Below the pieces are notes generated by a model. It was given only the letters and a program-made list of their open reading frames with translations. It was not told the DNA's origin and did not search any database. Positions 1 through 20,917 of a stretch of DNA of 20,917 bases are shown here, one piece after another. Source of the DNA: Gloeopeniophorella convolvens (Eukaryota > Basidiomycota > Agaricomycetes > Russulales); assembly GCA_022496205.1 (NCBI GenBank), contig WTXD01000179.1, positions 1-20,917 on the forward strand, given 5' to 3'. Positions within the stretch are counted from its first letter, which is position 1; each line of letters starts with the position of its first letter. Both the position numbers and the translations under genes were made by a program.

Positions 1-787
1 CCAGCCACCTTCCGAACTGTGGAGACCATCTTCACCTTCACTGTGCTGGATGACTTTCTGGTGGATAATCTAGAGTGTAAGACCACTGGACAGACCTATT
101 ATTCCAAGCTGCAGACCATCACCAATAGCATGTTTCCTCATCGTGTTTCAGTAAGTTTTCAATCAATATGTCTGGTTGAGACACATTAATATTGTGATAG
201 ACCCGATACAAGCAGCTACAACGTGCTTCAAGGCAGTGGAGAGACCTCACAAATAGGAAAAGAGCAGGTTATGGTCACACTGTGCCAGTCAAGGAGGAGG
301 AGGGCTGCATGGCCATCTTCTGTCCAGCATGTCCTCAGCCTGGCATCAATCTGCCAGACAATTTTCAAGAGATCTACAAACCGTCAGTCTAACTTGTTGT
401 TCAGTGATAATACACCTAATAGTGACTTTAGTGAAGAGTTGGTTTGGACTTTCATTATGGATGGCAACTTCACTACAGAGCACATGAGGGCTCGCACATC
501 TGATGATGAGGTCCCTCTGTCTGAGGGAACTTCATTCATGGCTGAACCAACTCGATATAAGGAACATCTATCCACTGCCAATCATAAAAAGATTGTGAGT
601 TATTGATCAGTACCACAATTGAGGTTTCTAATGTGTGATTGTAGAAAAGCACCTGTAACACCTACAGAGCCATTGAGATGGCCAACTCTAGTCATCCTCA
701 TCTTGATGTCACTGGGATAGGTGCCACTGCATGTGCCCATGGTTGTTTTGTGCCTACATCGGTTGTTGACTTCCAGAAGGGTGAACG

Positions 788-871
788 GTGCGTGCACGGT
801 CCGTGTTGAAACGGCCCGTGCTAAATGGTCCATGCTAAACGGTCCGTTTTACACGTATCTATAACCACCAG
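788..871 (+). repeat. 84-nt intron of the KDZ gene holding four copies of the palindromic motif
   Basis: The coding frame closes exactly across this segment: CG at 786-787 plus A at 872 makes an Arg codon, joining KGE to RQANMDYSL. It begins GTGCGT and ends CAG. Inside are motif cores at 797-803, 812-818 and 840-846 plus a variant TGGTCCATG near 827. Other introns of this gene are 40-60 nt, so this one looks expanded by motif copies. Confidence 0.75.
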
Positions 872-1670
872 ACAAGCCAACATGGACTACAGTCTCTGTC
901 AGGCTCTCAACTACAACATGGATGGCATCCCCATTGCTGTCATCTCATATGACATCATGTGCCAGTATTGTGTCAATCTACTCAAGAGGATTGATGAGAA
1001 TGCCTTGTTGTCCATCCCTGAGGCTCTCAAGCTTCATTATGTGATTGGTCTCTTTCACATTCATGGCCACCAAGACACCTGTCTTGCTCGATTCTCACCC
1101 AGCTACACTCATGCTACCAGACAAGTGGATGGAGAGATCATTGAGACTCTGTGGTCAATATTGAACAACATATCTCGGAGTACTAGAGGGATGTCTCTAG
1201 TTCATCGTGCAGAGGTGCTAGATGCCCACATGAACTATTCTAACTGGAAGAAATTGATTAAGACCGGTCCGTGCAATCTCAAATCTCATCCTACTCATTG
1301 TTAACTGGTGTTCTAGTTCCCTTCATGCTGAAACGCTGGAAGCGTGTCCAGGAAGGTCTCCCTCTGAGTGAGGTGGCCTTTGTGGGCCTGAGTCAATGCT
1401 TCCCTACAATGATTGGGATCTGAGCACTGCAAGAGGCCGATGCACAGTCACATCGATGGGAGAATCCAGAGGCAATGGATATCTATGAGACAAAGACTAA
1501 GAAAGGTGAACATACTTGTTTGTGCTCAATATGACTTCTCTGATACTTTGAGCACTAGCCCCCACTCGCTCAGAAGTTCAAACGGAGCTCAGTAAACAGG
1601 AGAAAGCCTGGGACTCATCCAATGGCAAGGCCCAATGGATCTCATCTGGACTCACTATTCAGGAGACTCA

Positions 1671-1723
1671 GTATGGTCCATGTCTTTGCACGGACCGTGC
1701 AATTGCTGATTTTACCCCTCTAG
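1671..1723 (+). repeat. 53-nt KDZ intron carrying the full 17-bp palindrome
   Basis: The segment begins GTATGG and ends CTAG, with a CTGAT branch-point-like site near the 3' end. Removing it joins CA to A as a Gln codon and keeps the KDZ frame (QETQ to LGIRRF). The palindrome at about 1686-1702 fills nearly a third of the intron, with a variant GGTCCATG at its 5' end. Confidence 0.75.
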
Positions 1724-1878
1724 ACTTGGAATTAGAAGGTTCATTCGTGCAAAGAAGGGAAGGTTCAACACAGCTGATAAGAAGACACTTGATGATTGTC
1801 GAAGCAACCTACAATCCCTCATCAACAAGTTCCAGCATGAGGCTGATTCCTACTTGCTCAGACACACCAGTGTTGCTA

Positions 1879-2130
1879 CCTCTTGTCCCGCCTCTGCCGC
1901 CCTTCAGACCGGCCCTGGGCCCTACTGCCCACAGCCACCCCTCATCCCTTTGACTGACTTCGCATTCTACGACCCCCCTCAGCTCTACACTCGTTACCTA
2001 CACCCGATTCATACAAATGGTGGCCGGCCAGTCCAGTAGCTAGCGTCAGGTACCGACCGCGTCTTGTCGTAGACCGACTGTTGCGGAATATAAATGCTGA
2101 CCCAAAAAAAAAAAAAAAAAAAAAAAAAAA
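1879..2130 (+). mobile_element. Poly(A)-tailed retroposon or processed retrocopy with 15-bp target-site duplication
   Basis: The 15-bp sequence ACACCAGTGTTGCTA occurs at 1864-1878 and again at 2131-2145; allowing one mismatch the duplication extends to 19 bp. The insert is about 250 bp and ends in about 27 A residues (2104-2130) preceded by AATATAAA. This is the hallmark of target-primed reverse transcription by LINE machinery. A short open frame runs into the insert and stops near 2039, so it could be the 3' end of a processed mRNA, a 5'-truncated LINE or a SINE. I see no convincing Pol III A/B boxes. Deleting the insert plus one duplication restores the KDZ frame (RHTSVA to ISSIQK). Confidence 0.85.
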
Positions 2131-2338
2131 ACACCAGTGTTGCTATCTCATCAATCCAGAAAATCAAGTCTTACCATGAGTTTGATAGAGCTGATCAAGT
2201 GGATGAAGATCAGATCAATGAATCAGACTGTTCTGATGATGAAGACGTGGAGAATGAAGGTATCAGAGATGGAGATGATGGCTCTGCATCTGTGTTCCCT
2301 GAAGATGTTAACATCATGCTCCCCTCGACTCTAGGACG

Positions 2339-2823
2339 TGTTGAGACAGACAGTGTCCTGGCGGCTCTGATTAGATTAGATATGGACCTAATGATCAAGG
2401 ACTATCTTATCTAGTGTACATAATGTTCTAGACTTAAGGCTGTGTTCAGCCCCACATTCGTTTCCATGTTCTGGACTATTCTAGGGCATTCCATGACCCA
2501 CCTTGTACTCCGGTACCCACTCTTACTCCGTTTCATGTGGGTCTCTTAGGCTTTCTAAGCAGTGTTTATCACATGCTATCTGTCGTTCCTTACTGTATAT
2601 AAGGACCTCTTTCTTCGCCTTTGTAGCCTCAGTCTTTTGACCTTCTCTGACTGAGGCAAGTACACTTACACTCCTTTCACTTCTACCTTATGCTTACCTT
2701 ACCTTGTAGCGTCACTCTGTGTCCTTCAGGTATTGCACTAATGTATAAGTCTTTTGACCTTCTCTGACTGAGCGTCACTCTGTGTCCTTCAGTTGTCACT
2801 CCACCCTCTGCTGTGCTTCAACA
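2339..2823 (+). mobile_element. Solo LTR (485 bp, long variant) inserted in the KDZ gene
   Basis: The element starts TGTTGAGAC and ends CTTCAACA, an inverted TGTTGA/TCAACA terminus. Flanking 5-mers are GGACG (2334-2338) and GGATG (2824-2828), a target-site duplication with one later mismatch. It is near-identical to 15271-15638 over most of its length but has about 117 extra bp, because a TTTTGACCTTCTCTGACTGAG block is duplicated around a unique spacer. A TATA-like TATATAAGG lies near 2595. No internal retrotransposon genes adjoin it, so it is a recombined solo LTR. Superfamily not determined. Confidence 0.88.
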
Positions 2824-3628
2824 GGATGGACTTGGTGCCTCCATCATGGTGCCAAGTCACTTGCTGTCAAAGAAGCAAAGCTGAGGGTTGCTCAAGCTCA
2901 TGATGCAATCCACAAGATCCGACTTGCCCTTGGATTCAAGTCTTCACTGATCAGAACAAGGGTCAGGACTGCTAAGAGCCAGAAGACAAAGAAGAGTGCA
3001 TGGAGCAGTGTGCATGGTGTGGATGCAGGTGTTCAAGAGCATGCCAGAGTGTACAGTCTGGCAAGGGACATGTTTGATGTCCTTGAAGATGCACTCCCAA
3101 GTCAAGAATCACTCCCAGAGCTAACCAAGGCAGATATGAAGGTGCAGACCCTTGTTCTAGGCTCAAATGAACGAGGACAACAGAATGAACAACTCCCCTG
3201 GATCTGGACATTTGGGATCCAGGAGAATAACGGACCTCATTGGTTTGCTGAATGTGAGTGGCTCCATTCATTCAGTTCACTCTGTCACTGTACTAATAGT
3301 ATGTATATGTTTAGTACAACGGGTTCACTGGCTGAGAGCCAAGGCTCAGCTTGAGCGGTGGATGGAGGAGGAGTGTACGATCAAGAATGAAGCTCATTGG
3401 GTGCCAGCCTACTTCAGAAATCGAGCAGACTTCTGGATAGAGCGCATGGATCGGACCGTGCAATTGACGAGTCCAGGACACTATGCCTATGCTGCAAAGC
3501 AGAGGCACATGTGGATTCAGCTTGCCCAGAGTGCTGATGAGGCATTGAAGTTTATTAGGGAGTCTGAACCACTGGTGGACAAGTCTACATTCACTTACAT
3601 GTCTGTACCAGCTATCTATGTACCTTGA

Positions 3629-3953
3629 GCATAGCATAGAAGTGTTTAGTTATAGTATATTATGTTTATTGTTTTCTGTGGATAGTGAATAGCACAATGA
3701 GCTACTTCGCCTTGAACACGGTCCGTGCAATGACTCATTTCAAGCTTATCCACACGCTTAAGAAGATAATAAAGTGTGTATTAATGTATACACCTTGCCT
3801 TGTGTGCTTCTCAATGAATGGTCCGTGTTTGTGCACATTCAATCATATAAATCCATACTCTTATCACACATTCAATTCCACCAAGTGAAATACATCGAAA
3901 TTCCATTCATGCACGCAAGATACATTGTACAGCAAGTTTAAACAGGCCCCCAC
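3629..3953. other. AT-rich spacer between convergent element genes
   Basis: No gene seen. It holds the 3' flank of the KDZ gene and of the minus-strand gene ending at 3954. Palindromic motif copies lie at 3719-3725 and near 3818. A TGTACAATGTAT sequence (minus-strand reading) near 3913-3924 recurs downstream of the gene that ends at 20196. Confidence 0.6.
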
Positions 3954-5862
3954 TCACTTCCTGCCACAACTGGTGCTGGAAACACGCTTGGCTAGGGCAC
4001 CTGTGGAACGGACCGTGCTGCTGCCTGCTGGGAGACGAGATGGTCCAGCCACACCCTCTGCAAGGTTGTGGCTAGAGAGCAGGATGGGGGAGGGAACTGC
4101 AGAGTGAATGGGATGAAGGGACACAGAGGGAGATGGAATGGGCCGATCTGGCCTGCCTGCAGTGCCATCCTTGAGCACTTCAGTCAGCTTTTTGATCTGC
4201 TTCTGCAAATCGTGTGCAGCTATGATATATTATACATTAGAACTGTCACAACGAGTGTAGAATGATTGTACTCACTGACAAAGTTGGTAGTGCTCTTGTT
4301 AGACCTAAGATGTGTCTCTGGCCTGAACAGCAGAGGCAGAGCCCATCTTGCAGGGGGCCAGCAGCGAATCCCCAGCCTCTCACACCTGATACACTCGTAA
4401 CTTCGGGTCTCAAAGGCATCTGGCTGGATTGTGCACTCCAGCTTCGCATAGTTGCACGGACCGCACCGATCCTATCGCACGGACCGTGCACATCGCATCA
4501 GATCATCAAATATGAGCAGTAAAATTGACTTACCTTCTTGTAGTCCTTTTTTATCATGTTCACAGTGCCCTCCTCTGTGATGTAGGTGTTCTGAGGCGTT
4601 GGGGAGCTTCTGTGGGTGAATAACAAGTTAATCAATGCATTTCTAGGTGGACCTTAACTGTACTCACCCTTCCTCCTGCTCAGCAGCACCCTGAGTCGTT
4701 CCCTCAGTGTTGACCTGCAGCACGGCCCGTTTTGGCAGCGCACGGTGTTAGGGTCTAGCGGTCTCTACGCTCGGAAACCTCGGATCTGGGTATTTTGCCC
4801 TGCGAAGCGATCGGGTTGAGCTGGGTAGCAAAGGATGTGACCCCAGACTGCCCTTGAGTGCAGATGCGAGCCTGTACGTTTGTATATTGCAGTTCCCTTT
4901 ACTTCCTTTTCTTTCCTGGTTCCTTTACACTTTCGGGTCGCAGGAAACCCTTGTACCTACCGGATTTGGCTTCGGGTTCCCACGTAGTCAGTAGTACTGC
5001 ATCCTGTAGTGTTTTGGATCGAAAAGCTTCCTTTCCCCGGTGCTCCCATCTCATTTCGGGTCTGCGTCGTGTTCAGAGACTCTCCCTCACTCTCTGGAGG
5101 GCCCGAGGCCTTCCAGGACCTTCGGGTCAGCTTCAGGTTGTGTTCCTGCAAGTTTGGGTCCTTTCCTTGCGTTTCCGAGCGGATCCTTGCAGTCACTAGC
5201 TCATCCTATTGCTCATCCGACCACCCAGTCCTCATCCCATCACCCCTGGCGACTATAGCAACTCCCCTCGGTCCACATCTCTAGCTGGACTCAGGATATC
5301 AACGGGTCGGTCGGCGCTTTGCAGGGGGTTCTACAAGCACAGAGAATGTGTCAGAGATGTACAAACAAGATAGGGATACTGAGGCGCACCTGGTTCATCC
5401 ACCTCCATCTCCTCAGCTGCTGGTGGTAGCCACCACCTATCCAACTCCCCATCCTCAATCATCACCTCCTCCAGGTCAGTGCTAGACAAGACACCCTCCC
5501 TCTTGGACTTCTGACAGGCTTTAGTGATCCTCTCCATGGTGAGCTCATCCAAAGGGGTCACAGTCTCGCCTTCCCACAGGCTGGAAGCAAGCTTGATGGC
5601 TGGGTGGACAGAGAGGTGCTCCAAAGATCTCTTCTATATCATGATGGCAGTGTCCTACAGATTCTGACTGTTAGAGACTTTGAATGAAATAATGATACTG
5701 AAAACTCACCACCTCTCGCTTCAGATGCTTTTTGAAGTCCTTGTCAGGGATTGCATTGCCCTGATCCCTTGCCCTGACAGCCTCAATGATCCTACAGGCC
5801 ACCAGCAGCATATCCTGCTGCTCATCAGTGTATTTGAGGTACTCTAGACGAAGGTTAGACAT
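3954..5862 (-). pseudogene. Zn2Cys6-like cysteine-cluster protein, degenerate paralogue of the 6343-7369 gene
   Basis: The start MSNLRLEYLKYTDEQQ is at 5862. Probable exons are 5710-5862, 5390-5654, 4668-4714, 4534-4609, 4276-4471 and 3954-4219. Exon 4276-4471 encodes RCGPCNYAKLEC, a 13-residue loop, then ECIRCERLGIRCWPP, giving C-x2-C-x6-C-x13-C-x2-C-x6-C, the spacing of a Gal4-type binuclear zinc cluster. The last exon starts with a coiled-coil-like stretch (DLQKQIKKLTEVLKD), then a Pro/Ser-rich tail. An in-frame TAG at 5634-5636 early in exon 2, and a frame that does not close from exon 2 to exon 3, point to a dead gene. A 0.6-kb insertion sits in the second intron. Domain order and exon plan match the intact paralogue next door. 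DNA binding is inferred, not shown. Confidence 0.72.
4744..5336. mobile_element. Unclassified ~0.59-kb insertion, LTR-like, in an intron
   Basis: The block is richer in GC and CT than its surroundings and carries neither the palindromic motif nor a coding frame. It begins GGTGTTAGGG and ends GGTTCTACAA between two copies of GCAC (4740-4743 and 5337-5340). Inside, TTCGGGT recurs four times (about 4934, 4972, 5055 and 5121). TGTTAG at one end and CTACA at the other are an imperfect LTR-like pair. Without it the host intron would be about 82 nt, in line with the others. It may be a decayed solo LTR of a second family; boundaries are uncertain by a few bases. Confidence 0.5.
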
Positions 5863-6342
5863 TGAAGCGATGGGGATGATTGATATAGTGTGTGGAAAGT
5901 GTAAGGGGGATTTGGGACACTTTGGATGGCTTGTGACGCTGATTGAGCCCCAAACACGGCCCATGCGGGATGCATGCACGGTCCGTGTCTGGAACAGTCC
6001 ATGTCTGAAACGGCCCGGCCAGATGATCCATATCTAGCACTTAGTGATGTCATTGACTCAATTTGGAATAAATCTGATTTGATCGAGATCAGATTAGATC
6101 CTCCATTGATTTTACAGATTAGGCAGCCCCACATGTTAATGTGTATCTAAAGATTCGATGTAGATGCAATCTGGGCGCTTGAACAGCCCATTCTTGACAC
6201 GGCCCGTGCAGAGTTCTCCTACACTTTCTATCTAACAGTATTTGTGCTCTACAGAAGTAAAATACATGGAATGCAGAGTAAAAGGGTGCATACACGGCCC
6301 GTGCTCACACAGCCTATTTCTACACCCAATAGCTCTAATCCT
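5863..6342 (-). promoter_or_regulatory. Upstream region of the 3954-5862 gene with a palindrome cluster
   Basis: Four motif copies or near-copies lie at about 5957, 5979, 5995 and 6011, roughly 90-160 bp upstream of the ATG at 5862. Two more exact cores at 6200 and 6295 lie nearer the 3' end of the next gene. The rest is AT-rich and holds no gene I can support. The cluster position matches that upstream of the other two element genes, so a regulatory role is plausible but unproven. Confidence 0.5.
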
Positions 6343-7369
6343 TCACTTACTGCCACCCCCCAAACGATATATCAGTCCCTCAATCTGCTTTGTTATGTCC
6401 TTCCGTGCTACATTGTTTTGTTAGCCTTGTTCAACCATAATAAATAGTACAATTCACTCACTGACAATATCACAACCTCTGGAGCTCATTTGACGATCTC
6501 TCATGGCATACAGAAGTGGTAGGGCCCACCCAGCAGGTGGCCAGCACCTGATCCCATGCTCTGCACAGTGTGTGCATTCATAGGCTCCATCTGATTGCAC
6601 TTGATCTTGAATCTCACAGTGCCTATCATTAAGATTGCATTGCCCACATCTTCTCTGCAACACGGACCGTTCAATATATAAATAGAACACATAGAGATCA
6701 CTCACTGTGTCATATTCTTCCATGGGGATCTCCTCAATCTCCCCATCCTTAATCTCCCCATCCTCAGAAGCAGTTTGGTTTAGGATATAATCCATGGAAG
6801 ACACTGAAATATCTGGACTATGACACCTACTCAGTCTATTATCCTCTCTCAGTTGTAAAGGTATAAACTCACCTCTGCATCTCTTGATCTTGCTCAATGT
6901 CACCAGACTCAAAGTCAGGCCTCCACCACTTGGGACTGTCTGACCTTGTGTTCCCAGCATCCAGAAATCTCTCGAGCTCAGTAGTGGCTGACACACCCTT
7001 ACACTCATTGGCCACACAGTCTATAGCAATCCTTCGAAGGTTTACATCACCTAGCCTTGGTGTACTATTGCCATAGATCACTGTGGCCACCTCAGTGATA
7101 ACAGGGTGTGGCCAGAGGATGGGATTATCCATCCCCAGCTCTAGGGCAGTATCCTATCATGGATCACTAGTAAGAACATCATTGATCAAGGTATGGAAAT
7201 GACAACTTACCAGTGCATCCTCAATATGCCACAAGACTGCTGGGCTTGGCTCTACACCTTGCTGATGACATCTCCTGAGGACCTCATTGATCCTGGCAGC
7301 GATTCTAAGGATTGTCTGCTGTCCTTGAGGGAGAGCAGAGAATGTGGAGAGTTCAGCTAGGGTTGGCAT
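6343..7369 (-). CDS. Zn2Cys6-like cysteine-cluster protein of the mobile-element territory (269 aa)
   Basis: Five exons splice to 810 nt with no internal stop: 7211-7369, 6873-7153, 6706-6817, 6462-6654 and 6343-6407. All four introns (51-57 nt) are GT-AG. Start is MPTLAELSTFSALPQ. Exon 4 opens with RRCGQCNLNDRHC, a 13-residue loop, then ECTHCAEHGIRCWPP: C-x2-C-x6-C-x13-C-x2-C-x6-C at about residues 187-218. That spacing fits fungal Zn2Cys6 DNA-binding clusters, although here it sits in the C-terminal half, with an acidic stretch just before it. The tail (KDITKQIEGLIYRL) is a short amphipathic helix. The intron at 6655-6705 carries the palindromic motif. The degenerate paralogue lies directly downstream. 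Function is not established; a transcription factor or transposition accessory protein is the best guess. Confidence 0.75.
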
Positions 7370-7663
7370 GGTATTGTGTGTGATGATGATGTGGATGAAG
7401 TGATAGAGAGTGGTAGGGCGCTCTGATACCCCAATATGTTTTCTGGCCCCAACAATTGAAGAGAGGGCCTAGACTTGTCATGTGCTGTTCACACGGTCCG
7501 GTTTGCAAGGTCCCTGTCGCACGGTCCGTCTCACACGGTCCGTTTCACACAGTCCATGTCATATGATCAATTTAATTCATTCAACTCATATAATCTAATC
7601 CAAATCAGTTCTGATTATACATGGTCTGATTGTTATCCCTTCACGATCTATTCTATAGTGCTT
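7370..7663 (-). promoter_or_regulatory. Upstream region of the cysteine-cluster gene with motif cluster
   Basis: Three exact cores (7494, 7522, 7536) and a variant CAGTCCATG near 7550 lie 120-190 bp upstream of the ATG at 7369. They are separated by only about 10-20 bp. Weak similarity to the outer part of the right inverted arm persists here, so this may be where the arm decays into the gene's promoter. Confidence 0.5.
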
Positions 7664-8671
7664 GCATTATGTGTGTGGTGGACAACCTTGCAGTCACTTG
7701 ATATATTTAGTCCTGTGCATCTAATACACTTACTATACTCCATTGTATATTGGTCTTCACAACTAGTCTAATATTGTTGTAGTGTATATTGCACTCCCCA
7801 ATGGACATGCTTTATCTCTGGCTCCTTTCATATTGAAGGACTTTGTAGAGTGTATTCTCAGTTTGAGAGCATATCTTCCTTGTAGGTAAAGATATGTCTT
7901 ATGATGCTTGACACCTGGATAATCAAAGCCATCTGAGTATAGCCATTACAACAGCTTGATTGATGCAGTCCTGTCTACTCTGTATACCTAGCACAACAGG
8001 TTATAGATGAGTAGTTCACACAGATATTACCTATACTGCCTGCACAGTCTGATCTATGCATAGTCTATTCTCTAACATGATCTAATCTGTTCAGTGATCA
8101 TTCTAAACATGGACCGTTCTCTACACGGACCGTTCCATGCACGGACCGTGCACATGTAGAGTAACTGAACTATATATACAGATTTTATATGATTTGTTTA
8201 TAGGGCCTTTGCACGGTCCGTTCGATAGCACTCACACAGTCCGTGTTTCTGCCTTGTATGCACTCAGAGTACACTACATAGTCTGTAATGTAACATGGTA
8301 ACACTCATTCATCTTGAGTTACCACTCACCACCTGAGTTATGTGTATAGTGGGGGTCCTTGGAATCATCTGATGTATCTACTCACTATACTGAAGTACTT
8401 ATGTGTTTATCACTCAATGAATACTTGGATACTCCTTGGATACTACTCAAACATTCTCTGAACAGTTCTCAGATACTTCATTTTATGTTTTTCCAATCAT
8501 TCCTTCATTCAAAGTGACGCTTGCACGGTCCGTTTTGGTACATGGTCGGCCGACGCTATGACCGATAGGTGAAAACAGTCCGGTCGGCCGACGTCGGCTG
8601 TCCATGAGTCATATGGAGATTCTGCGGTCGGGCCGTTCCACAAGTGATATAGCAGGTCTTGGTCCATATGT
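7664..8671 (+). repeat. Inverted arm A of a ~1-kb repeat
   Basis: The reverse complement of this segment matches 16290-17262 nearly base for base over most of its length, with small indels; for example, the stretch around 8041-8160 matches about 16785-16920. The inner end is sharp: GGTCCATATGT stops at 8671 and the next base belongs to an LTR. GTCGGCCGAC palindromes lie within about 130 bp of the inner end. Motif cores lie at 8126, 8142, 8214, 8526 and 8629. No coding region is seen. The sharp inner end and subterminal motifs look like the terminus of a large transposon. Confidence 0.8.
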
Positions 8672-8835
8672 GGTGGGTCATGGAATGCCCTAGAAGAGTC
8701 TGGAACACGGAAACGAATGTGGGGCTGAGCACAGCCTTAAGTCTAGAACATTATGTACACAAGATAAGATAGTCCTTGATCATTAGGTCCATATCTAATC
8801 TAATCAGAGCCGCCAGGACACTGTCCGTCTCAACA
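8672..8835 (-). mobile_element. Truncated LTR fragment abutting arm A
   Basis: Read on the minus strand it starts TGTTGAGACGGACAGTG at 8835 and follows the LTR at 15271 for about 164 bp, then stops abruptly where arm A begins. The downstream half is missing. The 5-mer before its start (minus strand AATAT) has no visible partner, because the other end is gone. Arm A therefore interrupts or was recombined into an older LTR. Confidence 0.85.
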
Positions 8836-9463
8836 ATATTCTTCTTGCGCAAATCGGAACCACACACAACCACGCAGATATCTTCATGAAGGCGCTGCCC
8901 GGCCCTGCATTCCATCGGGCATGTGGGATGCTTGGTCTTCAGGGCCATAATAGCAGTGAGGGTGGGGAGGAGTAGTGTTTCAGTGGTTTCTCAACGTTCC
9001 CTTTGTTTTGTTGTTTTCTGTTGCATGTTTTGCGCTGAGGAGTGTGAGGACTCGCTGTGCGGTCCGGATTGCAGCGCGTCACGTGCGCACGCTCAGTGTA
9101 ACCGGTTCGGAATGTGTTCGCGTTCCCTCAGTTCATTCTCCATTACTGCGACTGAGGGAAGTACCAGATCTTAACAAATGGGAACGACTGTCTTCCGCAA
9201 TCAGCATAAGGTCGGCAACGGAGACTAGGTTTGGCGGGGTTCTGCGACGGGTAGCTGCTAAATCGCTGACTAGGGCCGTGCTAGAGAATTTGCATTCATT
9301 TTCTATGCATGGTCTACGGTTCGGAGATGTTTCCCTTTTCCTTTCTACCTATCGAGCAGACCCCGGAGAAATAGGAAATCAATAATGTGTAGATGCTATG
9401 GGAAGTCATCCAATAGGACAAAAGCATGAGATATGGAAACATAGCACCTGTAGAGCGAACTAC
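8836..9463. other. Spacer between truncated LTR and ammonium transporter 3' end
   Basis: No gene recognised. A minus-strand open stretch (MALKTKHPTCPMEC, 8948 to about 8836) runs into the LTR and may be a fragment of an interrupted ORF; no family was recognised. A bare CGGTCCG core at 9060 lacks the usual arms. The part near 9463 should hold the transporter 3' UTR. Confidence 0.4.
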
Positions 9464-11256: not shown

Positions 11257-12343
11257 GGCGTTGGGTGAGATTCGGGGGAGGAATCGAAGCGCAAAAGTTG
11301 CGGCATAGAAGGCCCATACATATGGGAATCCGTGCAAACCTTGGCGTCCATATCCACCAATCATGATTCGCGATGCTGCTTATCTCCATCCGCAATCGAC
11401 TGACTAGATCTTCTATCGGGACGACAGCACCTATGCTTCCGTATCTTCCATGAGGCACAAGGAACCAAGGGGGCCGTGCCTCCGTTGCATGGCCTCGCTG
11501 GCAGTCCACCGAGTCGATATCCACCGCTCCTTGATCGTCCACCGCGCCTTCCATCGTGTGCGCCCACAGCGTTCACGCATCTCTAGGCTCTCTGGCTCTC
11601 ACGCTCGTCACCCGAGGGGCGTCATCTGGGGCACCGGCCCGCTTCCGTCGCATTGGTCACCTTCGCATGGCCTGCCTCCGTGCCAGTGTGCTCATGATAA
11701 GGATAGTGGTAAAGCAAATTGGCCGGCCGTCGACCCCCTGCCTCGCCGACCTCGGCCTCACGCCGATACTGTTATTGACACGGTCCTCCTGTCAACTGCG
11801 CAGTCTAGCCCAAAAATCCCTGGATTGCATCAGATAGATAGCTCAGCACTAGAGCTCAGCGCAGTTATTGGACACGCTTATCTGCCAAGCAAGTTCCCCT
11901 ATGTGATGATTGCATGACAGATTGCCGCCTTCGGGGGCACGGCCGATGCCATGTCGGGGCTGCGTCCGGGTACAGTGGCCTGGTCTGAAGCGTCACACAG
12001 CCTTGCTGTACTCACACAGCTGGGTGGCGAAGGCTGTATCGTGTACGGTGGACTTCTCCATTGAGCTTTGAAGTGATTATCGGGCCATACAACACACGTT
12101 CGTATACATCTGTATACATACGCCCGACCAAGCATGAGGATATTCTTCCCGTCAAGGCAAGCCACATGTGCCTCTCGAGTTAGCTCGATTCCAGAAGCAG
12201 GGAGAAGATCAAAGCATAATTGAAGGCAAATTGAAGGGAGATGACTTATTCCGGCGCCTACATAGTATTTGGTTCTGTTTGGTTGTGACCTAGCTTTGCG
12301 AAACGGAACTGCACTGCTCGTGAAGCTTCGCGCGACGTTGAAC
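11257..12343. promoter_or_regulatory. Divergent intergenic promoter region with GATA sites
   Basis: This ~1.09-kb region separates the divergently transcribed transporter (minus) and the 12344 gene (plus). It holds GATAAG at 11696-11701 followed by GATAG at 11702, GATAGATAG at 11833-11841, CTTATC at 11877-11882 and TTATC near 12077. AreA/Gln3-type GATA factors govern ammonium transporter genes in fungi, so these are good candidates. No coding region is supported. The GATA motif is short, so some matches will be chance. Confidence 0.5.
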
Positions 12344-13439
12344 ATGTCCCTCCTGATCCAAAACCTACGAAGGACACTCATATCTCGTCGAGCATTGTCT
12401 GCATCATCTGGTCCCCGTGCGCCCAAATGCACTACCACAGGCAGGTTATTTCACGCCCAAAGAATCTGTGAGTATTCACCTCAAAACCCAACGGCTACGT
12501 GGCTAAGTCTTCCTTAGCCTGTGCTGCCAATACATCAGCAGCGCCTCCGCCCAACGATGAGACCTCCTTCGAAGATGATGGTGAATTATTCTCGCCGGAT
12601 GCAGAGAAGACTCGGTCTCCGTCCCTACCCCCGAGCCCCGCGAAACCGGGTGGGGAGCTTCGCACTCGAAGGTTTGAGGAATCGTTTGGCTTCCTCTCTA
12701 CCCACATTGGTCGGAAGCCTTCCGCGGAGGACTCGCTCCAAGCTCGGAGTAGCACATGGCTCTATCTCTTCGACCTGGCGACGCAACCAGAACAGCTTAA
12801 ACGTGTCTCGAGCAAGTTCTCCCAATTCGTCGATGGTGGTAGGGTGTTCCCGGAAGGACATGCACTCGCATTCACTCGTGAGTGACCTCTTTGTCTCATG
12901 GCTTGATAAAGTGGAGTTCTGAAACCGGTATTTTCACCCACACAGGCCGATGTGCAGAACTCCGCTGTCCCCAGCTAGCCTTGGCCGTTTTCAGCGACCG
13001 CCCAACCTACCGTCTGGACCTAACTCCTGCGGCCGCTCGTCACCTCATGTACGCTCTCCACGAACAGCGCCCACTCTCCGACGTCATTGCCCTGGCCACT
13101 CTTTACCGCTTGTACAAGCTTCCTCCGCTCTCCGCAGATCCTGTCAGCTGTGCGCTCCTGATCTCGGCTTGCCTTCGTGAGGCAACTGCTTCCGGCTCTG
13201 AGCCAGCTAGCACGATCGCCACCGCGCTACTTCCCGGTTTCAAAGACCTGCTCTCAAGGACTGAGCTTATGCCGACTCCGCAGTCCGCGACGGAGAATAA
13301 CAGCCTGAAGGAACGTTTATGGATGGAACGTGCCGCCTTGAATATTCTCGAGGTCCTATCTTCCCGGGGCGACGACACAAAGTGGATTGAGGATTGGTGT
13401 ACAAGAAATGGGTACACCCCGTCGGAAGGTGCTCCTTGA
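12344..13439 (+). CDS. Hypothetical protein, probably mitochondrial, 325 aa
   Basis: Three exons (12344-12467, 12518-12877, 12946-13439) splice to 978 nt with no stop; introns of 50 and 68 nt begin GTGAGT and end in TTAG and ACAG. The N-terminus MSLLIQNLRRTLISRRALSASS is Arg/Ser/Leu-rich without acids, like a mitochondrial targeting peptide. A low-complexity acidic and Pro-rich linker follows (about residues 50-90). The C-terminal two thirds is predicted helical by composition (LTPAAARHLMYALHEQ, DVIALATLYRLYKL, WMERAALNILEVLSSR), resembling a helical-repeat fold such as PPR-like mitochondrial proteins. I do not recognise the family firmly. It ends NGYTPSEGAP at 13439. Codon use and lack of the palindromic motif mark it as an ordinary host gene. 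Confidence 0.8.
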
Positions 13440-14848
13440 CTTAAACGATACAGGCACGCATCCGTTCCGTGGAGTCAACTCTACAAGCCGAGTTTGGAAA
13501 AGCTTACTGGGCGACTCAGTCTTGCTACATAATTAGCCCTATCGGACATGCGTCGGCCTGAGATGATCGTCTCTAGTTCATCCATCGTTGTTTTATACAC
13601 ATGTGCTAGATCCACGATTAATGCCGCAGATATGCAGATTAGCCCTCCTCCATTCAATATCCGGAAAGGCTGGATTGTGTGCCTGATACAAATAACACGA
13701 GCCCGAGGCTTGAGGCCTCGAGGTCTGCCTCTGTTTCCCTGCAGCCTACGTCTGATTCAGCACATATAATGGCTGCGACGATTTCTCCCTGTCCACTTGC
13801 TAGCTAGCCCGTGACGCTAGATACGCAGTTTCAACCCCCACCCACGCACTTCGCTGTGCCCAGCCTCAACACCAGTGACCAAGTTGACACGACGCTCCGT
13901 CCTTAGCGGCTCACTGAGCGCCCCAGCGCTAGCCGATCTCCACCTCTATACACACGGTACTAGCGCCCGCGTGAAGTTTGGAAATGGCACATGATTACTT
14001 AGCTTATGGGTGAGCCTGCCTCAATCAATGCTCCCTACCTATGCATCGCTACAGCCTGAGATTAGAGGTGTATGGAGTTCATATGTACTGCAAGTAGCCG
14101 TCAAGATTTTGAGCCATAATCTGCAATGGATACAAAGCTATTGCTAAATTAACTCAGACAAACCACTTGATCTCTTTCTAGCTGTAGAGCACTGTAGAAA
14201 TTTGTAGAAACCATAACTTTATTTCCACAGCAACATGTCATATATCTGATACTTTGTCTACAATACCAGGCTGATTGACCAACTACAGAAGCTAGGAGAG
14301 CTTGAATGGGTTCTGTTACTCTATAGCTGTGTGGTACTTGCACATTTCTTGCCTCCCTACCCTTCAAACTGGCTCTTGAATTCAGTACATAGTATACGTC
14401 AAATTTTCCCTTTAGATGTACCCTAAGATCTTGTAGCATGAACCACTGAAGCTGCTAATCTAGCTGATTCAATCTAGGGGATGCATGTTACCAAATGTGT
14501 TCTGGCCATTTCTCAAGACTGAATGAACCAACAAATGCCATACTTCATACATAGCCTCATCCATACATGATAGAAACACATGTATATTCTGGTAATTCTT
14601 GTGATTTTATCCAGAGCTCTGGAAATCAAACAAGGTAGAGCCCCCAGTCTGTAGTAATTCAACAATATCTCTGAATCCACTGGGACTTAGAACTTGAAAC
14701 ATGGAAGGACATTAGAGCTAGTATACACCATCATGTGTGTTAAATTTCAGAATGGTAAATCGTGTAGGTCATCCAGCGTTGAAGGAGGAACAATGTTTGG
14801 GTGCTGACCAATCACGTGCTGTTTCCAAACTTTGTGCGGGCACGAGTA
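13440..14848. other. Long intergenic stretch, no gene seen
   Basis: About 1.4 kb from the end of the 12344 gene to the Tc1-like element. The first 500 bp are mixed in composition; the rest (about 14000-14750) is AT-rich with short frames only. No tRNA, rRNA or motif copies were seen. A small GC-rich inverted repeat around 13702-13720 is unlikely to be meaningful. It ends in GAGTA, with TA at 14847-14848 as the insertion target of the Tc1-like element. Confidence 0.5.
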
Positions 14849-14876
14849 CTCACTGTGACCAAAAGTATCCGGACAC
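14849..14876 (+). repeat. Left terminal inverted repeat of the Tc1-like element
   Basis: The sequence CACTGTGACCAAAAGTATCC directly after a TA target dinucleotide resembles Tc1/mariner termini, which commonly share a CAAAAGTAT block. No matching right end is seen, because the element is truncated. Confidence 0.65.
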
Positions 14877-15270
14877 GTCACATGTGTCACGTCGTAGTTA
14901 CATCGTCGATCATCTTTGCTCTGTATCACCATGGCCCGAGGACCTGTTAAGCTCACACCTTCCAAGAGGATTAAGATCCTCACCCTCCATGGATTAAACC
15001 ACTCAGTTCGCAAGATCTCTGCCTTAACAGGCATTCCCAAGTCTACTTGTCATGACACCATCCGATGTGATCACTTGTTCCACACATACCGATCTCTCCC
15101 CCGATCTGGCCGTCCACATGCGATTGATGATCGTACTGGGCGAAGGGTCATCCGAACTTTACACAAGCATCGCTTTGACACCTATCGCAAGGTTGCTGAG
15201 ATGGTTGGAGGCCTTTCAAGGCGTCAAGTTCAACATGTTGCCAACTCTGCTGGCTATCATTGCTGGATTG

Positions 15271-15638
15271 TGTTGAGACGGACAGTGTCCTGGCGGCTCT
15301 GATTAGATTAGATATGGACCTAATGATCAAGGACTATCTTATCTTATGTACATAATGTTCTAGACTTAAGGCTGTGCTCAGCCCCACATTCGTTTCCGTG
15401 TTCCGGACTCTTCTAGGGCATTCCATGACCCACCTTATACTTCGGTACCCACTCTTACTCCGTTTCATGTGGGTCTCCTAGGCTTTCTAAGCAGTGTTTA
15501 TCACATGCTATCTGTCGCTCCTTACAATATATAAGGACTCCTTTCTTCGCCTTTGTAGCCTCAGTCTTTTGACCTTCCTTGACTGAGCGTCACTCTGTGT
15601 CCTTCAGTTGTCACTCCACCCTCTGCTGCACTTCAACA
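15271..15638 (+). mobile_element. Solo LTR (368 bp, short variant) with perfect GATTG duplication
   Basis: It runs from TGTTGAGACGG to CTTCAACA and is flanked by GATTG at 15266-15270 and 15639-15643. Excising the LTR and one GATTG restores the transposase frame (HCWIACRKPYL). A TATA-like ATATATAAGG lies near 15527. The perfect target-site duplication implies a recent insertion followed by LTR-LTR recombination. Same family as 2339-2823 and the truncated 8672-8835. Confidence 0.92.
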
Positions 15639-15770
15639 GATTGCTTGCCGCAAACCCTACCTCACCAAGTCAACTGTTCGGAGGAGGTTGGCATGGGCTT
15701 GGGCTAACACCAACCGCATCAGCAAAACCGACCGAGAATGATAAGAATTGATGAAACCTACTCTCGATGA

Positions 15771-16289
15771 TAAGTGTAAGACATCTCAAGATGACAACTG
15801 GTAACGCGATGACATAGCAAGATGTTAGTTTACCTATGTTATGCAGTTGCTGTCTTGTCATTATCGGCCCTCATCAACGCGCCTGTCGTGTCACCTAGCC
15901 ATATCAATTTGTTAGTACCCTTGACAATGTCTGCTAGATAGAATATAAAACCCACTGTACCTTGATAACCCTTGATCGCGAGACTATATACCCTTATCAC
16001 ACTCACTACCAACCTTGCCATGCATATATCACACCTTGTCAATCCAGCTGAGTTGTTATAAAAAGTTACCACCCCGCGAGCCCAGCGTCCGCGAGTACAA
16101 GCTCATCCCAGTCTACATACTCGAGCTCCTCGTCCCTAGCATTCACCCTCCACCCTCTCCTTTCATCCTCCACGTCCGGATCGTCCGCCTCCAAATCCTC
16201 CCACTTGTCCACCTTGGCGTCCTCCCCTCCACCAAGTGCCTCCTCCGCCTCCTCCGCCTCCTCCGCCTCTCAAGCGGCCCCCTCAGCGC
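15771..16289. other. Unassigned spacer with a CT-rich end
   Basis: No gene supported. It begins past the broken Tc1-like transposase, has two TATAAAA-like sites (near 15945 and 16058), and becomes strongly CT-rich up to the sharp start of arm B. It may be the remains of another LTR or a host promoter; there is no decisive evidence. Confidence 0.4.
16238..16270 (+). repeat. 9-bp tandem repeat GCCTCCTCC
   Basis: Three full copies and one partial copy of GCCTCCTCC in tandem. It lies in a CT-rich stretch just before arm B. An open frame reads it as Ser/Ala-rich, but nothing supports a gene here. Confidence 0.7.
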
Positions 16290-17262
16290 ACATATGGACC
16301 AAGACCGGCTATATCACTTATGGAACGGCCCGACCGCAGAATCTACATATGACTCATGGCCAGCCGACGTCGGCCGACCGGACCGTTTCTGCACATGACT
16401 CATGGGTTGGCCGACCGTCGGCCAAAACAGACCGTGCAAACATCGTTTTGAGTGCAGCCATGACTAGGAAAACATAAAATGAAGTATTAAGGAGTACCCA
16501 AGTAGTATCCCAGTACTCATTGAGTGATAAACACATAAGTACTTCAGTATAGTGAGTAGATACATCAGATGATTCCAAGGGCCCCCACTATACACATAAC
16601 TCAGGTGGTGAGTGGTAACTCAAGATGAATGAGTGTTACCATGTTACATTACATACTATGTAGTGTACTCTGAGCGCATACAAGGCAGAAACACGGACCG
16701 TGCGAGTGCTATCGAACGGACCGTGCAAAGGCCCTATAAACAAATCATATAAAATCTGTATATATAGTTCAGTTACTCTACATGTGCACGGTCCGTGCAT
16801 GGAACGGTCCGTGTAGAGAACGGTCCATGTTTAGAATGATCACTGAACAGATTAGATCATGTTAGAGAATAGACTATGCATAGATCAGACTGTGCAGGCA
16901 GTATAGGTAATATCTGTGTGAACTACTCATCTATAACCTGTTGTGCTAGGTATACAGAGTAGACAGGACTGCATCAATCAAGCTGTTGTAATGGCTATAC
17001 TCAGATGGCTTTGATTATCCAGGTGTCAAGCATCATAAGACATATCTTTACCTACAAGGAAGATATGCTCTCAAACTGAGAATACACTCTACAAAGTCCT
17101 TCAATATGAAAAGGAGCCAGAGATAAAGCATGTCCATTGGGGAGTGTAATATACACTACAAGAATATTAGACTAGTTGTGAAGACTAATATACAATGGAA
17201 TATAATAAGTGTACTAGATGTAAAGGACTAGATACATCAAGTGACTACAAGGTTGTCCGCCA
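16290..17262 (-). repeat. Inverted arm B of the ~1-kb repeat
   Basis: Its reverse complement matches 7664-8671. The inner end opens ACATATGGACCAAGACC, mirror image of the end of arm A at 8671. GC-rich GTCGGCCGAC-type palindromes lie at about 16363-16425 and motif cores at 16325, 16382, 16694, 16717, 16789 and 16805. Compared with arm A it lacks several short segments near 16490-16510. No coding content. As with arm A, the sharp inner end and subterminal repeats suggest a transposon terminus; the element body would lie to the right. Confidence 0.8.
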
Positions 17263-17515
17263 TAAACATAACTCAGATGATGAGTGATAAATCAAGATAG
17301 GTGAGTGTAACCATAATACACTAGATACTATGTAGTGTACTCTGAATGCATACAATGTAGAAACACGGACCATGCAAGCACTTTAGAACGGACCGTGCAA
17401 GGAGTACTCATATAAGTCATTTAAACTCAATGGATATGGAGTACTTACACTACATATGCACAGACCATTTCTGAATCGGACCGTGTATAAAACGGTCCGT
17501 GCAAAAACTATAATC
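17230..17515 (+). repeat. Diverged direct repeat of 16556-16850
   Basis: Both segments share TAGATACATCA, ACATAACTCAG, TACTATGTAGTGTACTCTGA and the same order of motif copies (a pair of ACGGACC sites, then a trio around GCACGGTCC). The spacing is about 674 bp. Arm B thus holds an older internal duplication; this second unit is more diverged and is only partly present outside arm A. Confidence 0.65.
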
Positions 17516-17609
17516 ATGGTAGTACACCTCAAACACCAACAACCTAGGTACACAATAAATAGAAACTACCTAGGCAATGCAGTATAACCTAGAAACTATA
17601 CTCCACCAC

Positions 17610-19767
17610 TCAAGAAGTCATTGGGAACTCTCCCTGCCCCTCGTCCTCTATCAGGATTGCTGTAGGGTAAGGAACAATGTCAGTACCACAAGATAGTGGA
17701 TAGAGAGAAGAATTGTACCTAGCCTTTTCAGTCAGCATAGTGTTACGCTTTGGACGACTTGTGCTTGTAGAGAGTGCCATGGCAGGCACTGATCCACCAC
17801 CACTGCCTCGCTCATGCACCACAGGCTCACCATCATCCCCCTCAATGGCTGCCACATTGGGTCGCCTTCTAGACCTACTTGTGGCTGCTGTGATAGATGA
17901 TGGGCCACCACGAGTGTTGGATGAGCCTTCATTGCTTTGATTGGCCATAGATGCACCTGCAACTGTCGAGGCAAATGTCACAGATGCACCTGAGGGTGCA
18001 CCACGAGCTCTGGATGGCAAGGGGGCAAAGGTGCGCGTTGGAACGGGCCGTGCGCGCCTAGAACCTCCACCAGTGGCTATATTAATGTCAGATATGTTTC
18101 ATATGGATAAGAGTGGCCATGCATACTAGGACGGTCAAGATCTGGCTCCAACACATCAAGAGGGAGCTGGGGTGATGGTAGGGGAGCCTCAGGTTCTTGA
18201 GCACGAGGAACAGGCCTAGGAATGTTAGAGACACGAGGTGGCTCATCCCTTAGGAGGGGACAAGTGCTCTTCCACTCTACAGGTTGAATTCCAGCCTCTT
18301 CCTACTCATACCTGTAGTCAAGGAGACGCTGAACATCATCCTTGCTCATCTTGGATGGATCTTGTAGCTGGAGATCTGTGGGGAGACTGTCCTCTTGGAG
18401 CCAAGCAAATTGATCTTTCTTAAGGGCACTCCAGCTAATAGCAAGGTTTTTGCGGCCTGTGACAAACTCTATAATCATGTTATAAGGAGTAATAAACAAG
18501 GTGAAGGGTGACTCACTGAGATGTAGGGTGAGAAAGTCTCTGACAGCACCCTGAATGACTTTGGCATGATGCTGAGAATAGTCTGCAATCACTGGAACTA
18601 GAGGACATCCTTCTCTATCAAGTTCAATCATGATCGGCTCATGATTGGCCTTTCCAGATGCTGGTGGTGCTGGAACATGCATAGCTAGCAGGGATATTAG
18701 TGATAGAGATATTGAAGATAGATAAACACAGACCGTTTGCAAAGCACCTCTGAGAATATCTCTTCCAGCTATTCCACAATGGGGCTGTCTCCCAGTCTCT
18801 GATCATACTCTTGAAGTCGACTCCATTGTCAATATATTTGTTATACTCTTGTCTGATCACCAAATTAGCATTATACATAAGGGATAATAGAAGCATATAT
18901 TTCACTCACCCACAAGCTCTGATGGTATTTGTCTCATCTGTCCAGGTGCAGAGGACAAATGTTCTGATACCACAGTATCGATATAGCTGCTCCTGGAAGT
19001 CTCTGATGACTCTTCCTCGCATCTTAAGTGCAAGACTGTGAGATTGCACGGGCCGATCAGGGGGTTAGAACGGTCCGTGCAAAGGGGACAATATGGAAAT
19101 GACTGACCGACACTGGATCTCACGAGGTGGGCCTCTGAGAGACCACTCATTGGCTGTTTCCTGAAGCACAGCCATCTCATCTTCTGTCACAGGTACCATG
19201 AGCTCTGTGGTGGTACGCTGCAGGTATCCAAAGTAGACTGGAGTGCCAGGAGGTGCTCCAGAGTTCTGTTTAGTGAGATTCATGATCTTGTCACGGTTCT
19301 CTTGATAGAACACATTTCTGGCAGACCACTTGCATGTGAAATGCATAAATCTGGCTAGGGCTTTGCGAGATCGGTTGTCAAACCACTTGCGGACTTTCTG
19401 AGACAATGGTGAGCCAGGGAATGCTAAAATGATACACAGAACGGACCGTGCGAGCCTCCCCTTTGTCAAAATCATCCCCCTCATCTCTCAGTGCTGTGAG
19501 GTCACCCAGAACATGATTGACTAGAAGAGCTCTGTCTGGTGCATCGCTGACTCGATATTCATCCAGATTCTCATGCAGAATCTCTAGATCGGCCTCAGTC
19601 AGCTTGAAGGGAGAGTCATCATCATCCTCTTGTTGTATGTGCCTTCTGAGCGATCAGGTGAGCGATCAAGATGATTTGAGGCAGGGAGAGGTTTTCAAGG
19701 TCCCAGCCTTCTTGTTCATCTTCACCAGGACCGAAACATCATCAGCAGTGTTGTAGAGATGGGCCAT
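17610..19767 (-). pseudogene. Multi-exon hypothetical gene of the element territory, probably decaying
   Basis: Likely coding segments are 19506-19767, about 19107-19423, 18910-19022, 18748-18852, 18517-18684, 18312-18468, 18127-18276 and 17610-18076, with short GT-AG introns between. Visible features are an acidic N-terminal part (EDDDDSPFKLTEADLEIL), a basic block (QKVRKWFDNRSRKALARF), a helical region with MRGRVIRDFQEQLYRYCG, a middle domain around WSALKKDQFAWLQEDSLP, and a disordered Ser/Thr/Gly/Pro-rich C-terminus. I do not recognise a family; similar proteins with a WF-N-SR block are frequent in Agaricomycetes. In-frame stops at 19666-19668 and about 19654, beside a repeated TGATCGCTCA, and a frame that does not close after 18748, suggest decay. 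Introns at 18685-18747, about 19024-19106 and 19424-19505 carry motif copies, and the C-terminal exon has one in coding sequence (18044). Confidence 0.55.
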
Positions 19768-20195
19768 GGAGTAGTAGAGCAGTTGACAGTAGTAGAGGAG
19801 TGATACAAGCTAGTGAAATCAATGCAGATGGCTGATGCGTGCTCAAACATGCTTAATTATATCTATGTGTTGAGATAATGATTAGATGTGGGTGGAACGG
19901 GCCGTGAATTGGCCGGGCCATGATGAGCAGTCAATGTAAAGTGTAGATTGTGATCAAGCACGGGATATGATAAGATATCGGCAACACGGGCCGTGTGTAG
20001 AACGGACCGTGCAGAACGGACCGTGCAATCGCACAAATTCACACAAGTCGAGAGATTTAAGGAACACAGCAATATTAAATAGTTCACACAAGTTCAGACA
20101 AGTTCAGACATCACAGAGCATAGCAAAAACGCGAGATACATTGTACAATGATGAGTGCAGACAGAAGGAAACAGGATATGGATAGTACAATGTAT
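19768..20195 (-). promoter_or_regulatory. Upstream region with five palindrome copies; 3' flank of the next gene
   Basis: Cores at 19898, 19987, 20003 and 20017 and a variant GGCCGGGCC near 19911 lie 130-260 bp upstream of the ATG at 19767. Near 20135-20194, ATACATTGTAC and GTACAATGTAT form an inverted repeat around a ~40-nt loop just past the stop codon at 20196. No gene otherwise. Confidence 0.5.
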
Positions 20196-20917
20196 TTAGG
20201 CCCTTGAGTGGCCACTCATGATGGAAGCGAAGTCCCTCACCTGCTCACAGCGCCCCTTCAAGGCCTCCAGCTCACTGATAATGTCCTCCATCTCCCTGAG
20301 AACATCAACAAAGTTGTTGATGGTCCTGTGGGTCTGAGGGGAGGTGGAGATGTCCTCAGCAGAGGGTCAGCCTCTGCACGGCGCAGAGTGAGAAGGGGAC
20401 GCCTTGGGGACTCTTGAGGCTCGTCCTTGATGATGGGGGAGTGCTGTGTTACCCTGGGGCGTTTCCTGGGTTGTTTAAGGCTCTAAAACAAGGTGAGATG
20501 TGTCTAGGATCGGACCGTGCAACAGCGCACCTCAGGGGAGTCTGGCTCATCCTGCACCTCGATCTCCTCGTCCTCATCCTCCTCAGCGGCTCACTCTGGG
20601 TCTTCTGGGGTTTCTCCCATGCTTTCCATGAGCTGGCCAAGCTCTTGAGCTTCGCACCAGGGAGAATGGGTGAGGGAGGGGTGGGGGATGCCATTCTGAC
20701 ATCAGCTGTGGCCTGCTTGACCTTGTTCTAAAGGATAACAGCTTGTAGCATGGAGAATAGCACATATACATTGTCAGACTCACCTTTCCCTTTTCCACCT
20801 TCCTGGTGGGTGGGGCCTCTTCCCCAGACGACTCAAAGGTTGCCTGAACAGCCTTTGGCTCCTGCTTGGACCTGGTGGAGGCTGCACGGCTTGGTGCACG
20901 AGAGGCAGCAGGCTCTG
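20196..20917 (-). CDS. Hypothetical coiled-coil protein, 3' part only
   Basis: The gene enters from the right edge and stops at 20196-20198. Visible parts are a basic Ala/Ser/Pro stretch (EPAASRAPSRAASTRSKQEP), an intron of about 50 nt near 20735-20785, an acidic run (EEDEDEEIEVQDEPDSPE), a Lys/Arg-Pro segment (KQPRKRPRV, a possible nuclear localisation signal) and a C-terminal coiled coil (FVDVLREMEDIISELEALKG). The 48-nt intron at 20483-20530 contains a palindromic motif (core 20511). Frames change between segments, so either further introns or decay are present. The acidic/basic blocks and terminal coiled coil recall the cysteine-cluster genes, and its 3' flank shares TGTACAATGTATCT with the gene ending at 3954, so it may be a further relative. 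The cysteine domain itself would lie outside the window. Confidence 0.5.

Follow-up and report, generated by a model that had tools for sequence, protein, structure and literature searches.

The window analysed here, positions 1–20917 of contig C89 (20,917 nt) from the 36.7-Mb, 404-contig genome of the wood-inhabiting basidiomycete fungus Gloeopeniophorella convolvens, holds a 7.6-kb host island between two copies of one transposon family (fam1), and both copies are densely set with the palindromic core CGGNCCG. The window element is a KDZ DNA transposon, and the motif marks one KDZ lineage of G. convolvens, the one that also carries genes for proteins with a cysteine cluster. We consider it fairly probable that these cluster proteins, encoded by the same transposon, bind the palindromes dispersed through it, and that the palindromes serve the control of its expression or chromatin. 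The proposal draws on five observations: the enrichment of the motif, its element specificity, the conservation of its sites, its co-occurrence with the cluster genes, and the co-divergence of site and protein.

A total of 44 CGGNCCG cores were found in the window (797–20511). The original prediction gave this total correctly but placed all of them in the element flanks, which hold 42; the other two lie in the host island. Compared with 200 dinucleotide shuffles per region, positions 1–8900 contain 24 cores vs 0.19 expected (shuffle maximum 3), and positions 16301–20917 contain 18 vs 0.14 (maximum 2). The island region (8901–16300) contains 2 vs 1.72 (maximum 6). Flank cores thereby reach about 125 times the shuffled expectation, and five control 3-1-3 words are close to expectation within the flanks. 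This bears out the prediction both of an excess far above chance in the flanks and of an island with just two bare cores and none with arms. The flanks are depleted in CpG (observed/expected 0.41 and 0.44; island 0.88), and a core with two CpGs is therefore doubly unexpected there. The longer form CACGGNCCGTG occurs 11 times in the window, with eight copies in the left flank, none in the island and three in the right flank. A few sites are duplicates because both ends of the element are inverted repeats. The full 17-mer TTGCACGGWCCGTGCAA, predicted as the repeated unit, has to be given up, with a single exact copy (at 1686). MACGGNCCGTK is present in 30 copies in the window, and substitution patterns delimit the conserved unit to these 11 bp.

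The elements encode up to three paralogous proteins (A, B and C) with the cluster CX2CX6CX13CX2CX6C. Genes A and B lie in the window (Table 1), and gene C is a mid-element paralogue at C83:16.0–17.4 kb with the deposited gene model P0006. Related elements (fam2) carry proteins D and E, and further loci encode the proteins F and G. The loop between the third and fourth cysteine has 13 residues in A–E, 12 in F and 11 in G, whose first half also contains an additional cysteine. A genome search with A revealed 44 cluster open reading frame matches across 22 contigs. Of the 16 contigs examined (all but C24, C224, C259, C336, C398 and C399), 14 are dense in CGGNCCG, namely 13 fetched contigs and C89 itself. 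The two exceptions are C297, where a 5-kb stretch has 2 cores, and C350, where the palindrome GCTNAGC is found instead. Protein searches with A and C returned five and three proteins, respectively, seven of them from G. convolvens.

The association extends into gene structure. In each of the six paralogues A–F, the intron preceding the cluster exon contains a core at 7–8 nt from its 3' splice site, intact in five and with one CpG-type change in F. Twenty-eight upstream positions of the same intron are 25–50% identical between paralogues (64% for D/E). Among the 21 copies whose cluster can be read (broken clusters are outside this count), the core is intact in 15 and carries only CpG-type transitions in six. 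For gene C, the intron is borne out by the deposited model P0006. A fixed distance to the splice site in six paralogues could also point to a signal at the RNA level, with the intron palindromes acting in pre-mRNA as a hairpin or in splice regulation near the 3' splice site. Two introns, at window position 1265 and in gene C (L015 ~1965), use the central GTCCGT of the motif as their 5' splice site (by eye; deposited model). However, 26 of the 42 flank sites, as sorted by eye, are not in genes but in promoters, terminal repeats or intergenic DNA, and we regard an RNA-level role as very improbable. As a separate observation, the gene B codons for the CGPCN start of the cluster (TGCGGTCCGTGCAAC, 4457–4471) hold a CGGTCCG core and so resemble the DNA motif.

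Across the genome, ACGGWCCGTGCA gave 191 matches (115+76) vs 12 (5+7) for the reversed control. The 100 matches listed of these 191 represent 84 distinct sites, of which 81 are clustered and 3 isolated. On the fetched motif contigs, dense cores adjoin stretches of host-like or repeat DNA in which cores are few or absent. Six KDZ loci without cluster genes (L030–L035, 29,978 bp) contain four bare cores, none with the ACGG..CCGT arms, and no cysteine cluster by a six-frame regular expression. This rules out a motif general to KDZ transposons, and the enrichment expected near KDZ genes in general is not found. The motif instead tracks the KDZ lineage with cysteine-cluster genes, and among the functions offered by the original prediction an accessory-protein binding site is the best supported. 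An equal frequency of the motif in host gene regions, which the prediction had named as counting against it, was not seen in the host stretches inspected, with the exception of one stretch (L028) considered below.

The same loci bear on a role as binding sites of the KDZ transposase needed for transposition, which had also been suggested. The clusters of cores in the long terminal inverted repeats would fit such a role, as would the presence of KDZ genes on many of the same contigs. However, the cores run through internal promoters and introns, and the six other KDZ loci are without the motif. Furthermore, a different palindrome, GTCGGCCGAC, is found near the ends of fam1 and fam2 alike (nine of the ten loci listed, L010 being the exception), though their dispersed motifs differ. 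Because the palindromes span the whole element while GTCGGCCGAC sits near the termini, transposase sites are disfavoured as an explanation and appear unlikely.

Conservation of the sites was assessed in fam1 alignments of less than 88% identity, in 199 comparisons that reuse related copies and therefore describe a pattern, not an independent sample size. The non-CpG positions of the motif (-2, -1, 2, 4, 7 and 8 from the core start) differ in 0–5% of comparisons, the core centre in 6% and the CpG positions in 12–20%. The six positions on each side of the motif differ in 8–47%. As the background is 9.4%, the sites lie in more divergent parts of the alignments. The CpG depletion of the elements is consistent with methylation.

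The exon models, which are approximate, place 36 of the 42 cores of the flanks in noncoding DNA (6.96 per kb) and six in coding DNA (0.88 per kb), a roughly eightfold bias. By eye, about 14 of the noncoding cores are terminal or subterminal, 12 lie in promoter or intergenic DNA and 10 are intronic. The original prediction had the copies crossing gene, intron and intergenic boundaries, but being mostly noncoding the sites are not indifferent to gene structure. Three inserts nested in the element hold no core in 1,289 bp vs 42 in the surrounding 12,012 bp. Arrays precede the start codons of gene A, gene B and the right-side gene by about 115–260 bp. These are what one would expect if the cluster proteins simply activated or repressed the transcription of the element's genes, acting without anti-silencing. 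A precedent is the Zn2Cys6 factor CLR-1, tabulated in the available part of PMC5468973. This is a narrower form of our proposal that overlaps with it in likelihood, and taken by itself it is quite possible, if short of even odds. Cores are also found in introns and in subterminal DNA away from start codons, beyond what promoters need, although this is not decisive.

Core pairs show preferred distances. Among fam1 pairs in unique contexts, nine are at 14 bp and six at 16 bp, and every other spacing up to 60 bp has 0–5. In fam2, five are at 16 bp (one in an adjoining fam1 piece) and four at all other distances together. Such 14- and 16-bp arrays, with their decayed units, suggest local duplication, and a spreading micro-element had been among the suggestions, here a functionless, self-propagating 14/16-bp tandem repeat spread inside the family. 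However, many sites are single, the non-CpG positions resist substitution, and none of the six paralogues has lost the intron site, which is CpG-decayed in one of them. Because conservation ends at 11 bp, we disfavour a micro-element and consider it highly improbable.

Further support for binding by the cluster proteins comes from related elements, where motif and protein differ together. The fam2 elements, located at C5, C6:8–12.5 kb, C240 and C372, have cores flanked by GAC/GTC, not CA/TG, and their form of the motif is GACCGGNCCGGTC. The base next to CGG is A or C in 133:11 half-sites in fam1 vs 3:32 in fam2. The fam2 elements have in common the terminus CACATATGGA and the subterminal GTCGGCCGAC. 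Two loci encode the more diverged cluster G, at C5:41 kb (adjoining a KDZ match at C5:38 kb) and C350:7 kb. These contain one or no CGGNCCG, and GCTNAGC is found 13 and 14 times vs 2.3 and 1.4 expected. It is the top palindrome of 832 classes scanned at both loci (z 7.2 and 10.9) and by eye also occurs inside gene G introns. Its arms differ at 5/90 positions vs 4/15 for the centres, with a background of 8.4%. The two G loci, the only copies found, are homologous to each other. In 13 control stretches the top z of the palindrome scan was 3.4–6.5, and five further controls were higher: 7.0 (L028), 8.2 (L012:1–2800), 8.6 (L033), 9.3 (L027:3001–5000) and 36 (the AT-rich L005:1–8000). Genome-wide, TTGCTNAGCAR gave 222 matches vs 127 for the reversed control, which is no strong excess. 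The evidence for GCTNAGC is thus moderate, because it comes from two homologous loci and five control stretches reach z 7–36. A possible fourth dialect consists of AGGACCGGTA units at 16-bp steps in L012:142–768, within an element with a related terminus (L012:1–1206, C40:15.0–16.2 kb); the genome search with A found no cluster gene on this contig. The correlated divergence of motif and element protein is clear for fam1 vs fam2 and moderate for the GCTNAGC family.

Several points weigh against binding by the cluster proteins. Apart from the reuse of related copies in the site comparisons, CpG retention inside the core is 0.78 vs 0.74 outside in fam1 and 0.89 vs 0.74 in fam2, and because the core values are only slightly higher these figures argue weakly for protection of the sites from methylation. 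No KDZ match was found near the fam2 elements, several of which lie at contig ends. The protein F locus (L027) has only two cores, and CGGNCCG is not its top palindrome. Another element gene that varies together with the motif could be the binder. The likeness of the cluster to the Zn2Cys6 domain (PF00172) is also incomplete. That domain has the consensus spacing CX2CX6CX5-12CX2CX6-8C, and the X13 loop of A–E is one residue over it. The Pfam Zn_clus cut-off was not reached, with weak matches in three of five sequences (best 12.5 bits vs 21). Alignment with hhalign to five Zn2Cys6 domains gave 22.9% over 13 columns and paired the second half with the first. A PDB sequence search gave two matches at chance level only (E 5.4 and 7.6), and AlphaFold models were unusable (predicted confidence, pLDDT, 50.1 for the 59-residue domain and 40.0 for P0006). 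As the profile cut-off was missed and the folds could not be modelled, we do not claim membership in PF00172.

A further point against us is the 5-kb stretch L028 (C1:1386501–1391500), which is host-like with normal CpG and contains 11 CGGNCCG cores, four of them as ACCGGNCCGGT, and no cysteine cluster by regular expression. It may be regulatory DNA of the host that a similar factor recognises. L028 also speaks for a host factor as the reader of the motif in the elements, be it for silencing, as a boundary or at a borrowed host regulatory site. The CpG depletion of the elements would agree with this, and CGGnCCG is listed among conserved Fusarium promoter motifs (M18) in the accessible part of PMC2853525. 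However, the dialects vary in step with the protein that the element encodes, and several other CpG-poor repeat stretches fetched have no CGGNCCG core. Moreover, an element is not expected to conserve the target of its own silencing. The silencing or boundary signal of the original prediction leaves the conservation of sites by the element unexplained, and we judge a host factor to be a rather improbable reader.

The reading we favour is self-recognition by the cluster proteins. Such a protein would act as a dimer that contacts both CGG triplets of CGG-N-CCG along with 2 bp to either side, and dimers would pair at a spacing of 14 or 16 bp. Bound element copies might be recognised as own and kept transcribable, through activation or anti-silencing, and the cluster genes would be autoregulated. 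From the sequences we infer that A, B and C bind these palindromes, bind zinc and dimerise, and what their binding would bring about. Given that promoters, introns and subterminal DNA hold most of the sites, binding most likely serves the recognition and transcribability of own copies.

A similar system is found in the Mutator-type VANDAL elements of Arabidopsis. The available parts of two papers (PMC5735166; PMC10398659) describe a short, dense motif in introns and upstream regions that is bound by the element protein VANC, with both coevolving. Both systems combine a dense short motif in the noncoding DNA of its own family, rare elsewhere, with an element-encoded accessory protein, and in both motif and protein diverge together. 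However, the VANDAL motif YAGTATTAY is arrayed in one orientation, whereas the motif described here is a 3-1-3 palindrome in a KDZ element with a cysteine-cluster candidate protein. Furthermore, binding and methylation loss have been demonstrated for VANC, whereas our account is drawn from sequence. A Pfam scan of protein A, which involves no direct comparison with VANC, found no family near its cut-off.

Fungal Zn2Cys6 (Gal4-type) proteins typically read CGG triplets, and the cluster proteins resemble them in their two CX2CX6C halves and in the palindromic site of CGG triplets. They differ in loop length, in the absence of a Pfam-level match, in a cluster that is internal or near the C-terminus, and in being transposon-encoded with several paralogues, while related elements use other dialects. 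CLR-1 is tabulated with the site CGGN5CGGNCCG (PMC5468973, excerpt), and the Zn2Cys6 protein PoxCxrA is reported with GCTGAGTCCTT (PMC6498484, excerpt), a loose parallel to GCTNAGC. The fungal KDZ transposons with genes for TET/JBP dioxygenases, which act on methylcytosine (PMC12730594, in the portion available), likewise combine a KDZ transposase with an accessory gene, although the accessory genes here are for cysteine-cluster proteins. No match to a TET/JBP partner was found in the G. convolvens genome by a search that was also silent in control genomes. In maize, En/Spm TnpA and Ac transposase bind many short subterminal repeats, and TnpA is also linked to demethylation; these repeats are limited to the ends, whereas the sites here run through the whole element. 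The literature searched, with most subscription papers outside it, contains no account of the motif or protein family, and none of the papers found with the string CGGNCCG is, in its available part, on transposons.

The KDZ assignment is based on a match to the transposase domain PF18758 (E 7e-29, 101.5 bits vs a cut-off of 26.6, segment 825–1304). Homologous copies elsewhere in the genome stop at the same points as the window copies (8672 and ~16289), and both ends share the terminus CACATATGGACC. The terminal inverted repeats of about 1 kb, here seen on two different copies, are 98% identical over 625 bp. The coordinates of all features are given in Table 1.

Table 1. Features of the window and positions of the palindromic cores
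Feature	Positions	Strand	Remarks
Right part of one element copy (KDZ gene to right terminus)	1..8672	+	24 cores, 797-8629; homologous copies stop at 8672; terminus CACATATGGACC on minus strand
KDZ transposase gene, interrupted by inserts	1..3628	+	exon models approximate, by eye
Three cores within one KDZ intron	797..846	+	intron ~788-871, by eye
Core overlapping 5' splice site of KDZ intron	1265..1271	+	ACCG/GTCCGT, by eye
Nested insert	1883..2126		0 cores
Nested insert, solo-LTR-like	2338..2826		0 cores
Cysteine-cluster gene B	3958..5862	-	limits approximate; cluster exon 4281-4471 (CGPCNYAKLEC..CIRCERLGIRC)
Core in gene B intron	4480..4486	-	8 nt before 3' splice site
Nested insert	4746..5301		0 cores
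Gene B promoter cluster	5979..6017		2 cores, ~115-155 bp upstream of ATG
Cysteine-cluster gene A	6454..7369	-	cluster exon 6454-6654 (CGQCNLNDRHC..CTHCAEHGIRC)
Core in gene A intron	6663..6669	-	8 nt before 3' splice site
Gene A promoter array	7494..7542		3 cores and 1 decayed at 14-bp steps, ~125-170 bp upstream of ATG
Long terminal inverted repeat	7667..8672		pairs with 16289-17271; inverted-repeat comparison and copy limits
Left-copy subterminal/terminal repeat cores	8126..8635		at 8126, 8142, 8214, 8526, 8629
Subterminal GTCGGCCG/CGGCCGAC repeats	8545..8592		candidate transposase site
Host island	8673..16288		ammonium transporter gene, second host open reading frame, Tc1-like helix-turn-helix fragment, LTR pieces; 2 bare cores, 0 armed
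Left part of second element copy, from left terminus	16289..20917	+	18 cores, 16326-20511; copies stop ~16289; terminus CACATATGGACC
Long terminal inverted repeat	16289..17271		partner of 7667-8672; inverted-repeat comparison and copy limits
Right-copy subterminal/terminal repeat cores	16326..17499		nine
Subterminal GTCGGCCGAC	16369..16378		candidate transposase site
Right-side gene	17610..19767	-	exons approximate; ATG 19767
Right-side gene promoter cluster	19898..20023		4 cores, last three at 16- and 14-bp steps

No Pfam match was found among the pieces of the right-side gene tested. One repeat resembling a long terminal repeat (LTR) has copies at 2338–2826, 8673–8836 and 15271–15646. The first resembles by eye a solo LTR with a 5-bp duplication (GGACG/GGATG), and the left element end falls within the second. 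A Tc1-like transposase N-terminal fragment is located at 14898–15302 (HTH_23 match, E 4.7e-6). At L015:6658, L018:9545, L019:2376 and L022:8440, near contig ends, one element copy seems to have inserted into another of its own family. For this reason none of the copies seen is complete at both ends. An 8-bp target site duplication is known for Zisupton, according to the accessible text of PMC12730594.

The question of how transposons evade silencing without harm to the host has one thoroughly studied example, from plants. As a tentative wider hypothesis, fungal KDZ transposons may have independently evolved a VANC-like system of self-recognition and anti-silencing. Each family of cluster proteins would have its private 3-1-3 dialect (MACGGNCCGTK, GACCGGNCCGGTC, GCTNAGC and perhaps AGGACCGGTA) in promoters, introns and ends, and in one lineage the core triplet would have switched from CGG to GCT. 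If true, this would suggest that self-recognition through dense dispersed sites arose more than once. The fungal system would then offer compact and easily assayed protein–site pairs, with several paralogues per element and several dialects per genome. Furthermore, it would provide a natural series for how cysteine-cluster proteins change specificity, and it could yield orthogonal DNA-recognition pairs.

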